Shown: positions 58,438-64,000 of the stretch, one piece after another | Layout: each line of letters starts with the position of its first letter | Position numbering within the stretch: position 1 is the stretch's first letter | Assembly (NCBI GenBank): GCA_013388905.1 | Contig: JACAEI010000031.1 | Coordinates: 1-64,000 of the forward strand | Direction: 5' to 3' | DNA from: Candidatus Bathyarchaeota archaeon | Lineage (GTDB): Archaea > Thermoproteota > Bathyarchaeia > Bathyarchaeales > Bathycorpusculaceae | DNA length: 64,000 nucleotides | Notes under the pieces: model-generated | The model's input: only the letters and a program-made list of their open reading frames with translations | What the model was told of the DNA's origin: nothing | Database searches by the model: none | Program-made: the position numbers and the translations under genes

Positions 58438-58513
58438 TCAGAAGATTTGTTAAGCATGCTATAAACTATTTCAGCGATGCCACCCATTTAAGTTGATAGC
58501 GCGAGGGTTGCTA

Positions 58514-59125
58514 ATGAATAGGGTAGATGGAACTTTCTCTATACTTGCTATATCGCCAGATTCCAAGTTTATGGGTGTTGCAGTAGCTTCTGGCTCCACT
58601 TCAGTAGGTGATAGGGTGCCCTATGCAAAACCTGGAGTAGGTGTAATTGCCACACAAGCCTACACAAACGTTATCTATGGAATTAGAGGGCTCGATTTGC
58701 TTGCTAAAGGCTTGTCACCTCAAGAAGCATTAAGTAAACTTTTGAGAGAAGATTCTGAAAGAGATTTTAGGCAAGTGGCAATAATGGACTTTAAGAAGAG
58801 AAAAGCTGTTTTTACAGGCGCTAAGACCCCAGAATTCAGTGCGGAAAAGGTTGGACAGAATCACATTGTTATTGGGAATTTTCTTTCTAGCAATGAAGTA
58901 GTCAACAACATGGTAAGGCATTTTGAATTTTCTTTAGGCGGCTTGGCTTGGAGAATGGTAGGCGCATTGAAAGTTGGAAGCGAAAGTGGCGGAGATAAGC
59001 GGGGCGAAAAATCAGCAGCGCTACTTATAGTAGGTGCTGAAAAGGTAGAAGTGGAAATAAAGATTGCCTTACACAAAAATCCTATTGAGCAGTTGTCTCA
59101 AAAGCTCAAATCACTAACAACATGA
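58514..59125 (+). CDS. DUF1028 (Ntn-hydrolase-like) protein
   Basis: 203 aa. The DUF1028 pattern is present: FSILAISPDSKFMGVAVASG near the start, VGVIATQAYTNVIYG with the ATQA motif, GLDLLAKGLSPQEAL, and a tail with GDKRGEKSAALLIV. The family looks like an Ntn hydrolase, but it does not start with a Thr/Ser/Cys nucleophile here as seen. Biochemical function is unknown. TTG 58493 is in frame; ATG 58514 with GAGG 7 nt upstream is preferred. Confidence 0.83.
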   Translation: MNRVDGTFSILAISPDSKFMGVAVASGSTSVGDRVPYAKPGVGVIATQAYTNVIYGIRGLDLLAKGLSPQEALSKLLREDSERDFRQVAIMDFKKRKAVFTGAKTPEFSAEKVGQNHIVIGNFLSSNEVVNNMVRHFEFSLGGLAWRMVGALKVGSESGGDKRGEKSAALLIVGAEKVEVEIKIALHKNPIEQLSQKLKSLTT

Positions 59126-60232: not shown

Positions 60233-61432
60233 ATGAGAATGCGAAATCCAACAGCTTTCTTGCGAGAAGAATATGAAGATTTGGTGAAAAACGAGCTTGA
60301 TTGGAAACTGAGAGTTTTACAGGGTCCAAGCACTCCTTGGTGTATTGTTGATGGTAAAAAAGTTCTGATGTTTTGTTCTAACAACTATCTGGGTTTAAGC
60401 AACCATCCTAAGCTGAAGGAAGCAGCAATAAAAGCTGTTCAAACTCACGGTGCAGGTTCAGGATCTGTTCGTCCTATTGCTGGAAACATGGATATACACA
60501 TAGAGCTTGAAAGACGTCTGGCAAGATTCAAACATGCTGAAGCCTCGCTTGTCTATCAAACAGGTTTTGCAGCTAATGCTGGCTTGATTTCTCAGTTGGC
60601 TGGTAAAGGCGATTTAATTGTAAGCGATGAGCTTAATCATGGTAGCATAATTGACGGCGTTAGACTGTCACATGCAGAAAGAGCGGTCTACAAGCATTCC
60701 GATATGCAAGATTTGCAACGAGTCTTAGAGGAAGCAGAGAAACACCAGCCGCCATACAGACGAATCCTCGTAATAACAGACGGCGTTTTCTCCATGGACG
60801 GCGACATAGCGCCCCTAAATGAAATCGCTAAGCTTGGTGCTGAACACGGCGCAATGGTTTATGTGGACGACGCCCACGGAGAAGGCGTATTAGGCGAAGG
60901 CGGAAGAGGCATAGTCTCACACTTTAAGCTTGGACGTGACAAGGTTCACGTCGAAATGGGCACGTTCTCGAAAGCTTTTGGTGTGGTAGGTGGGCACATC
61001 TCTGGTTCTAAAGACCTAATTAACTTTGCATATAACAAGTCCAGGACATGGCTTCTCAGCGGTTCACATCCGCCAGCAGTTGCTGCAGCATGTATAGCAG
61101 CTATTGACGTCTTGGAAAAAGAACCGCAACATGTTCAGAAATTGTGGGAAAACACTAGATACTTCAAGAAAGTCATGAAGGATTTAGGGTTCAACATAGG
61201 CAACAGCCAAACCCCGATAACTCCAGTGATCGTCGGCGAAAGTGGTGTCGCGAAGAAATTGAGCACGCGACTTTTCGAAGAACAGATTTTTGCTTTACCA
61301 ATTGTTTATCCAATGGTCGCACGAGATAAAGCTCGAATAAGAACAATCATGAACGCTGCTTTAACAAGAGAAGACTTAGACTTTGCCATAAATGCTTTCG
61401 AAAAAATCGGAAAAGAACTGCACATAATTTGA
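60233..61432 (+). CDS. kbl: 2-amino-3-ketobutyrate CoA ligase (glycine C-acetyltransferase)
   Basis: 399 aa alpha-oxoamine synthase. The PLP Lys is K247 in MGTFSKAFGVVGGHISGS; other family segments are CSNNYLGLSNHPKLKEAA, GSVRPIAGNMDIHIELE and VYVDDAHGEGVLGEGGRG. With Tdh it splits threonine to glycine and acetyl-CoA. ATG start with GAGGTA 4-5 nt upstream. A serine palmitoyl-like alternative is unlikely with this neighbour. Confidence 0.93.
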   Translation: MRMRNPTAFLREEYEDLVKNELDWKLRVLQGPSTPWCIVDGKKVLMFCSNNYLGLSNHPKLKEAAIKAVQTHGAGSGSVRPIAGNMDIHIELERRLARFKHAEASLVYQTGFAANAGLISQLAGKGDLIVSDELNHGSIIDGVRLSHAERAVYKHSDMQDLQRVLEEAEKHQPPYRRILVITDGVFSMDGDIAPLNEIAKLGAEHGAMVYVDDAHGEGVLGEGGRGIVSHFKLGRDKVHVEMGTFSKAFGVVGGHISGSKDLINFAYNKSRTWLLSGSHPPAVAAACIAAIDVLEKEPQHVQKLWENTRYFKKVMKDLGFNIGNSQTPITPVIVGESGVAKKLSTRLFEEQIFALPIVYPMVARDKARIRTIMNAALTREDLDFAINAFEKIGKELHII

Positions 61433-61510: not shown

Positions 61511-61849
61511 CTATCGTACGGTACTTGCTGTTTTACCTATAGCTTTGTAAGCCGCTTCTTTGCTGCCTTCTGCTTTGGATACCTCTTCTTTCAGTTGTTT
61601 AATGTCCATAGGGCAATTTCTGGATACTTCTTGGACGAATTCTCTCAATTCTTTTTCGTTCATGTGACAGCTTAGTGTTAGTTCTTCGATGATCTCTTTT
61701 GAGGTTTTTGCGTCTCCGTAACAGCTTTCGCTTAACTCTTCTAATGTAAGTTGCAAAACTTTTGGATCTATATTGCACTTTAGACTCAATTCTTCTGCCC
61801 ACTTTGAACTCAAATTTTCACTTCCTAGATAGAAGGTTAAATAGCTCAT
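61511..61849 (-). CDS. Small helical protein with four Cys at exact 18-residue spacing
   Basis: 112 aa, not recognised. Four tandem 18-residue units each carry E-E-L/V-S/T then two residues, Cys, and a polar turn: Cys at 25, 43, 61 and 79. The units are C-NIDPKVLQ, C-YGDAKTSKE, C-HMNEKELR and C-PMDIKQLK. This could be a helical hairpin repeat placing all Cys on one face. It is 19 nt after AOR2 on the same strand, so it is in that operon. ATG 61849 is used; TTG 61813 with AGGAAGTGA before it would keep all four repeats. Confidence 0.7.
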   Translation of the reverse strand: MSYLTFYLGSENLSSKWAEELSLKCNIDPKVLQLTLEELSESCYGDAKTSKEIIEELTLSCHMNEKELREFVQEVSRNCPMDIKQLKEEVSKAEGSKEAAYKAIGKTASTVR

Positions 61850-61868: not shown

Positions 61869-63740
61869 TTAACCGCGTAGTTTTTCTAACGCCTTGTCAA
61901 CGTCTTCAAGGCCAAGCTTTTTGAGTGTCTTTGTTTTTGGAATGCCGTTCTTATCCCAACCTACTGCATTATAATATTTTATCTTGTACTCTTCCACCTG
62001 AGTCTTATTAACAGCTTTTCCCTTGTATGGTCCCGAAGGTAGTGGTTCATAAAATCTTGGCGGATTTTCATCGTGAATTTTAGGTTTCCATTTCACGTCT
62101 GGACCACCTAAAAGCAGCATTGCCCTCTGTAACTGCAATATGCGCAAAGCTTTTGTTTTATACCATTCTTCTTGTGTTAATTCTATGTCAGTTATTGCCT
62201 TGTAAAAGTCGAATTTAACTTTGCGCGGGACACCGAAAACGTTAAAGTTGCAGTGGACACCTGAATCGTTGAAAATTTCGCCCAACTCGCTTCCTGGTCC
62301 ATCTAACGGTAAAGCAGTCGTGGATGTGTGGTCTCCACCTTGAACTGAACAAGTATAGGAAATTGGTTCAGGGTAGTCTTTTCCGCTACGGATTCCGTGG
62401 GCACCAATGCCAATTCCCTTAGACTGAACAGCGTATTTTAGAACGTCTGTTTTTTTCTTTTCTCCGATTTTCAACGCTGCGCGATATGTTCCCTCCGCTA
62501 ATAAGTCACCTATGCCCTCTCTATAAGCAATTTTTTTGGCTAAGACAGCAAAAACTTCTGCGTCCCCCCAATGAAGTTCTATTCCATCTAAATCTTCCTT
62601 TGTCAATATTCCTCTTTGAAAGAGCTCAGCGGCAAATCCCATCACATTTCCTGTCTGTATGCCACAAAATCCTAAATCGTCAGCAAGCGATGAGAGAAAC
62701 ACGTTTTCTTCGGGAGTAAAAATTCCCAAGTTTGGACCCAAATATGCTTGCATTTCATAATCTGGATTGTCTGTTATCGCTCCTTTAAATTTTCCAGTCT
62801 TAACCATAGCTATCTTTAAGCAACAGGTTGGACAGCCAAAATCGCTCCAAGACTGTTTTATCCATACTCTATTTTCAAATTGGTCTACGCCGTAACTTTT
62901 TTCGTCGTGCCACTCATCCTGCCAATTCCGAACTGGCTCAGAGCTTGTTTTCGCTCCAACCTCGTAGCCACCTGAACCTGTTCCCCAGCGTCGCCACAAA
63001 ACATTTTCATATACATTATCATTTACTGCTTTAATTAGTCGTTTTATTTCCTTTATGTTTGCCACTTCTGGCAATGGTCCGGTGCCTTTAACTGCTATTG
63101 CTTTTAATTTTTTGGAACCCATTACTGCGCCATAGCCACCATAGCCCGCAGCATGTGTCCATTTTGCTGCAACCACAGCGGTGCGCACCCTATTCTCTCC
63201 AGCAGGTCCGATATACAGAAATGCTGGTTCTTTCAATTCGCCAAATTTTGGATAACGTTTTCTCAAAAATTCTTTGCTGTCGTTTGTAAGCATTGCTACT
63301 GTTTGCTTTGCATCTTTCCCCCATATATGACGAGCATCTTTAATTTCGACATCAGAATCCTTAATAAAAAGGTAAACAGGCGTTTCTGATTCACCAGTCA
63401 CTATGACACCATCATACCCTGCACATCTTAGCTCAACGCCAAATTCTCCAGCAACAGTTGATCCTACGACACCGTTGCTTTGCGGCGATTTGCCTGAAAC
63501 ACAAATTCTTCCACCTGGGTAATATCCTGTTAATGGACCAGTTAAGAATAGAAGAATGTTTTCTGATTTTAAAGGGTCTATTGTTTCCCATTTTTTGCCA
63601 AGTCTGTCCCAAAGAATTTTTGTTGCTAGACCTCTGCCGCCAATGTAGTCTTTTAGGATGCCATCTTCAATTTTTGTTTCTTTGATTGTTTCTGTTGAGA
63701 GGTTAACTTCTAAAATTTTTCCGGCATATCCCAGAATCAT
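61869..63740 (-). CDS. Aldehyde:ferredoxin oxidoreductase family protein (AOR2)
   Basis: 623 aa. N-terminal pterin-binding domain: GYAGKILEVNLSTETI, YIGGRGLATKILWD, GYGAVMGSKKLKAIAV. The cluster ligands differ from the canonical set: C303 and C306 are present (GCPTCCLKI), the third site is I310 although C307 is adjacent, and the fourth is C497 (VHCNF). A mononuclear W or Mo site with a [4Fe-4S] cluster is expected. It overlaps the upstream ferredoxin gene by 4 nt and is followed by the Cys-repeat gene. The substrate is unknown. Confidence 0.92.
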   Translation of the reverse strand: MILGYAGKILEVNLSTETIKETKIEDGILKDYIGGRGLATKILWDRLGKKWETIDPLKSENILLFLTGPLTGYYPGGRICVSGKSPQSNGVVGSTVAGEFGVELRCAGYDGVIVTGESETPVYLFIKDSDVEIKDARHIWGKDAKQTVAMLTNDSKEFLRKRYPKFGELKEPAFLYIGPAGENRVRTAVVAAKWTHAAGYGGYGAVMGSKKLKAIAVKGTGPLPEVANIKEIKRLIKAVNDNVYENVLWRRWGTGSGGYEVGAKTSSEPVRNWQDEWHDEKSYGVDQFENRVWIKQSWSDFGCPTCCLKIAMVKTGKFKGAITDNPDYEMQAYLGPNLGIFTPEENVFLSSLADDLGFCGIQTGNVMGFAAELFQRGILTKEDLDGIELHWGDAEVFAVLAKKIAYREGIGDLLAEGTYRAALKIGEKKKTDVLKYAVQSKGIGIGAHGIRSGKDYPEPISYTCSVQGGDHTSTTALPLDGPGSELGEIFNDSGVHCNFNVFGVPRKVKFDFYKAITDIELTQEEWYKTKALRILQLQRAMLLLGGPDVKWKPKIHDENPPRFYEPLPSGPYKGKAVNKTQVEEYKIKYYNAVGWDKNGIPKTKTLKKLGLEDVDKALEKLRG

Positions 63741-64000
63741 AAGTATTCCTCTGCTTGTTCGCCGTACATTTTGGTAGCCAAATCTTTTGCTATTTGCTCT
63801 GGCGTGCGCGCATAAAGTTTGTATGGACGTGTTCTTCTATGAACCATGGTTAGCACATTCCAGCCGCCTTCTTGGCATACTTTTACACATTGAGGATTGC
63901 CATTACACAAATCACAAATTACAACATGATTTTCCGTAGGATGCATGTGGGGGATTCTGCCTGGGCAAGCGTCTATGCATTTTCCACATGCAATGCAGGC
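63737..64000 (-). CDS. Ferredoxin-type 4Fe-4S protein of the AOR2 operon (5' end outside window)
   Basis: Partial: the gene runs off the window end, and the last 87 codons are seen. Two cluster motifs remain: C-I-A-C-G-K-C-I-D-A-C-P, then C-D-L-C-N-G-N-P-Q-C-V-K-V-C (C-x2-C-x5-C-x3-C). The tail is helical and ends EQAEEYL. It is the first known gene of the unit and its ATG-overlapping stop couples it to AOR2, so it is the likely electron acceptor or dedicated subunit. Further clusters may lie upstream. Confidence 0.85.
   Translation of the reverse strand, partial: ACIACGKCIDACPGRIPHMHPTENHVVICDLCNGNPQCVKVCQEGGWNVLTMVHRRTRPYKLYARTPEQIAKDLATKMYGEQAEEYL

Follow-up and report, generated by a model that had tools for sequence, protein, structure and literature searches.

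A small archaeal protein with four cysteines 18 residues apart: a putative helical-repeat family of Bathyarchaeia

Short tandem helices with regularly placed cysteines are described for the SEL1/TPR-type repeats of the Helicobacter Hcp proteins, and the same work describes the CagY repeat-2 modules, which are tandem, helical and Lys/Glu-rich, also carry regular cysteines and are 38–39 amino acids long (PMC2581425). A different arrangement of thiols is that of the Csp copper-storage proteins, four-helix bundles lined by thiolates (PMC5171941).

We analyzed a four-cysteine protein encoded near the end of a 64,000-nucleotide stretch (the window) of contig JACAEI010000031.1 of Candidatus Bathyarchaeota archaeon. 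Like the Hcp repeats, it appears to be built of short tandem helices with regularly placed cysteines, and two of its 18-residue units would equal one 36-residue helical hairpin of the Hcp kind, a lag of 36 residues also being strong in its self-similarity. Unlike them, it matches neither a Sel1/TPR profile nor a PDB fold, has one cysteine per helix end and is probably cytosolic; its pI is acidic (5.1). The Hcp repeats are its closest mechanistic analogue, with no family relation implied. The resemblance to CagY repeat-2, compared by description only, extends to the tandem helical modules, the regular cysteines and the Lys/Glu-rich composition, but CagY is a surface protein of a secretion system with longer modules and many repeats. 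With the Csp proteins it shares an all-helical prediction and thiols predicted on the buried face; whereas many cysteines line the helices of the Csp bundle, our protein has only four, at helix ends, and it lacks a profile match.

The earlier note on this DNA recognized no family for the protein, and our searches agree. Pfam and NCBIfam give sub-threshold matches only, and Foldseek of the predicted models against PDB and BFVD returns nothing at E <= 0.001. The best Pfam matches of the window protein are GatB_YqeY (PF02637; 18.5 bits, gathering score 27) and DUF2383 (PF09537; 17.2 bits, gathering score 30.8). We rejected the GatB_YqeY tail domain on this score and on an hhalign probability of 4% over 31 columns, and DUF2383 as non-specific: other small proteins in many genomes score alike or better, and in none of 61 genomes is the DUF2383 cut-off reached. 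A local match to recoverin, the best in PDB by sequence (E 0.05), was also rejected, and resemblances to a viral tail protein and to MTERF4 were treated as generic small-helix similarity. A literature search found no description of the family.

The four-cysteine gene and its repeat

The gene was first reported as an open reading frame with an ATG start, of which residues 1–12 are not conserved. Translation probably begins with the TTG at 61813, since a Shine–Dalgarno-like motif precedes this codon and homology sets in there; other homologues share the same start point. Translation of the minus strand confirms that the longer form contains only four cysteines, spaced by exactly 18 residues as the earlier note had read them (Table 1).

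Table 1. Features of the four-cysteine locus in the window
Feature	Coordinates	Strand	Remarks
Four-cysteine gene ("C18"), 100 aa, TTG start most likely	61511..61813	-	Start from homology, conserved Shine–Dalgarno motif and homologue starts
Long open reading frame, ATG start, 112 aa	61511..61849	-	First-reported form; residues 1–12 not conserved
Cys13 codon (Cys25 of 112-aa form)	61775..61777	-	Predicted C-terminus of helix 1
Cys31 codon (Cys43 of 112-aa form)	61721..61723	-	Predicted C-terminus of helix 2
Cys49 codon (Cys61 of 112-aa form)	61667..61669	-	Predicted turn after helix 3
Cys67 codon (Cys79 of 112-aa form)	61613..61615	-	Predicted turn after helix 4
Shine–Dalgarno-like motif GGAAGTGA, upstream of TTG	61818..61825	-	Kept in G001, G006, G035
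Archaeal TATA-box-like motif CTTAAATAA	61851..61859	-	In 55-bp gap between AOR2 and four-cysteine gene
AOR2, aldehyde:ferredoxin oxidoreductase family	61869..63740	-	Pfam AFOR_N and AFOR_C; neighbour, partnership only putative
Ferredoxin-type 4Fe-4S protein, upstream of AOR2	63737..64000	-	Pfam Fer4; runs past window end
Aminotransferase class I/II family gene, convergent	60233..61432	+	Pfam Aminotran_1_2

The probability that four positions drawn at random from 100 are evenly spaced is P = 4e-4, falling to P = 1e-5 for a spacing of exactly 18. In 371 kb of the source genome, with 339 putative genes, we counted cysteine sets as evenly spaced at a spacing of at least 8. Exactly four cysteines are encoded by 39 genes, and the four-cysteine gene is the only one among them with even spacing; the three other evenly spaced progressions in the survey all lie in proteins with 11–14 cysteines. 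The period persists when the cysteines are excluded: lag 18 then gives the strongest self-similarity in seven of nine homologues and is second to lag 36 in the other two, a level of period-18 self-similarity reached by none of 1000 shuffles. Outside the cysteines the four units are 18–30% identical to each other, and a fifth unit has Lys or Arg in the cysteine position.

Within a unit, hydrophobic residues occupy positions -11, -8/-7 and -4 relative to the cysteine, which is in register with them and so on the buried face. Position +2 is hydrophobic in three of four units, and +3 is usually Asp, Asn or Ser. The pattern has the look of an amphipathic helix followed by a turn and a helix cap, in keeping with the helix–turn unit of 18 residues envisaged previously. 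The E-E-L/V-S/T block said to precede each cysteine is recognizable in a loose form, as x-L-[SG], E-L-S, E-L-[TA] and x-V-[SA] in the successive units.

A profile search of 163 genomes of the order recovered 12 copies in 10 genomes, one in the source genome and 11 in nine others; the named records among the matches are Candidatus Bathyarchaeota MAGs. Across 257 genomes of the class and a 398-genome sample of the phylum nothing else matched convincingly, and the gene was not found in the viral contigs, phages or plasmids searched. Weak matches elsewhere in the phylum are partial, do not keep the cysteine pattern and were judged to be due to chance. By these profile matches, the family is confined to one order of Bathyarchaeia. 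One MAG chromosome (CP070791.1; L003, L005) has two copies of the gene with runs of N nearby, one resembling that of the MAG bin42 and the other that of bin106, possibly the result of chimeric assembly.

All 12 copies read retain the four cysteines at this spacing, which supports the earlier note on this point. The family is small and stems in part from MAGs with N gaps (L002, L003, L038), and with 10 rows and an Neff of 1.95 its alignment has little depth. The dN/dS ratio is 0.03–0.07 in three close pairs of homologues, and 0.11 in the pair G000/G001, in which synonymous sites are nearly saturated. Because the period of 18 persists without the cysteines and the close-pair ratios are this low, the gene encodes a real, constrained protein under purifying selection.

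Predicted structure and possible roles of the thiols

AlphaFold models of two family members (pLDDT 82–85, pTM 0.72–0.75) consist of six short helices, at residues 4–13, 17–31, 35–48, 53–65, 71–80 and 85–99 in the window protein and nearly the same in a member 53% identical to it. In either model the helix is interrupted at each cysteine. This excludes the reading as a single long helix, and the proposal that the thiols line up on one face of a five-turn helix is not supported. According to the models and the register, each cysteine falls on the hydrophobic side at the C-terminal end of its helix, and consecutive cysteines are at opposite ends of a predicted helix of 11–16 residues, about 20 Å apart as estimated from 1.5 Å per residue. 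This makes one four-thiolate site within the monomer unlikely, and with it the alignment of all four thiols as a single site suggested by the earlier note. With helices of alternating direction, Cys13 would instead pair with Cys49 and Cys31 with Cys67.

The best reading, which we hold with moderate confidence, is an order-specific helical-repeat scaffold, encoded by a stand-alone gene, with the thiols as structural pairs, and neither an AOR2 subunit nor a cofactor carrier dedicated to AOR2. Each unit of roughly 18 residues would form one short amphipathic helix ending in a cysteine, followed by a tight turn, usually with an Asp, Asn or Ser helix cap. Because the helices would alternate in direction, thiols 13 and 49 would be close to one bundle end, and 31 and 67 close to the opposite one. 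The two pairs may be packed together, joined as disulfides via protein disulfide oxidoreductase, or used as two-cysteine sites for a soft metal; in the biochemical role that we infer, they would stabilize a small binding scaffold.

Disulfides inside the cell are frequent in thermophilic archaea (PMC3177088). The source genome contains a PDO-like gene with CQFC and CPYC motifs (L090:12996-13640; G000:C45). Among proteins without CxxC in the sampled proteome, 88 have two, four or six cysteines versus 124 with one, three or five, by crude gene calls; a disulfide-rich cytosol is not indicated, because even cysteine counts are not in excess.

This lack of an even-cysteine bias argues against disulfides and favors a metal or Fe–S protein, a possible though somewhat unlikely alternative in which a soft metal (Cu(I), Zn(II) or Fe) would sit in single two-cysteine sites at the bundle ends, or these sites would combine across a homodimer into Cys4 sites, the protein being a small store, sensor or carrier of metal. 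The family alignment has four invariant thiols and no invariant histidine, and redox genes neighbor the gene in both of its genomic contexts, ferredoxin–AOR2 in the f1 genomes and flavin and disulfide oxidoreductase genes in the f6/f7 genomes. However, the protein has no CxxC or CxxxC motif and matches no metal-protein family, and, if the models are right, the placement of consecutive cysteines at opposite helix ends rules out a Cys4 site within one monomer.

We consider it unlikely that the cysteines are ordinary buried residues, small and hydrophobic, that fill the core at helix C-caps and have no redox or metal chemistry. They share a face with the core leucines, and since several of these are equally invariant, invariance alone does not tell whether the cysteines are functional or buried structural residues. 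Yet Ala, Ser or Val occurs at none of the 48 cysteine positions in the family, despite the low identity of the units elsewhere. Also quite unlikely, in our estimate, is a one-cysteine-per-helix family in which dimeric Cys4 sites would hold an Fe–S cluster or a soft metal, serving as a lineage-specific redox or metal carrier untied to AOR.

Gene order and the link to AOR2

The four-cysteine gene lies on the same strand as AOR2, separated by 55 bp that include a conserved TATA-like motif of its own, in addition to its own conserved Shine–Dalgarno motif. The TATA-like motif is identical at five loci (the source genome G000, G001, G003, G034 and G031) and reads TATTTAAAT in G006 and G035; the Shine–Dalgarno motif has the form GGAAGTGG in G031. 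The convergent aminotransferase gene we take, by reading, to be 2-amino-3-ketobutyrate CoA ligase-like (kbl-like).

The gene is found directly downstream of ferredoxin–AOR2, on the same strand, in six f1 genomes (G000, G001, G003, G006, G034 and G035), where this order sits within a wider syntenic block. In the f6/f7 genomes (G094, G106 and G160) it is located elsewhere, with FMN reductase/flavodoxin and pyridine-nucleotide disulfide oxidoreductase genes as neighbors, the latter convergent to it at L019:10403-11836 and L040:10563-11738. In G160 (L038:9312-10236) a second, more divergent copy adjoins a DUF1028 fragment, and the window has a full DUF1028 gene at 58493–59125, about 2.4 kb from the four-cysteine gene, which gives a hint of an older shared gene order.

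The earlier note inferred from its position that the protein might serve AOR2 in cofactor delivery or sulfur transfer. Consistent with this, AOR2 is encoded in each of the seven f1 genomes that carry the gene. However, 18 f1 genomes, some of them incomplete MAGs, have an AOR2 at least 70% identical but lack the gene, and the open reading frame next to AOR2 reads as formyl-THF cyclo-ligase-like at the loci inspected. The kbl-like gene lies downstream of ferredoxin–AOR2 at a further 12 f1 loci, where the four-cysteine gene is missing. Genomes with the gene cluster in a single f1-type subclade of the AOR2 tree; four AOR2 rows in that subclade come from genomes that lack the gene.

The gene also occurs without any link to AOR genes. 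G094 and G160 keep it but lack an AOR2 orthologue, having only AOR paralogues of roughly 35% identity, the absence from G160 being no proof because this genome is 85% complete. In G106 (69% complete) a 69%-identical AOR2 is more than 300 kb from both four-cysteine copies. In G031 the adjacent AOR2 is an in-frame remnant: a ferredoxin is fused in frame to the C-terminal 80 residues of AOR2 (G031:C109; L018:8300-8883), which looks like a deletion of most of AOR2, either natural or an assembly artefact. The downstream four-cysteine gene is intact and retains CTTAAATAA though only the remnant lies upstream. This case is suggestive only, because a complete AOR2 is present on another contig and the MAG is 8% contaminated.

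With AOR2 operons of close relatives lacking the gene, the gene persisting without AOR2, and conserved promoter-like signals of its own, delivery of a cofactor or sulfur to AOR2 is unsupported and, as a reading, very improbable and largely refuted. Since the whole neighborhood is syntenic, the adjacency carries little weight; the preferred interpretation is that the genes share a local order, not that they form a functional operon, and the link of the gene to AOR appears weak.

Significance of the family

The four-cysteine proteins constitute a real, previously undescribed family of small archaeal proteins. This orphan family is compact (100 amino acids, 12 copies in 10 genomes) and combines unusually regular thiols with strong selection, which should make its expression and testing straightforward. 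The case also illustrates that an operon partner suggested by conserved gene order may find no support once more genomes are sampled.
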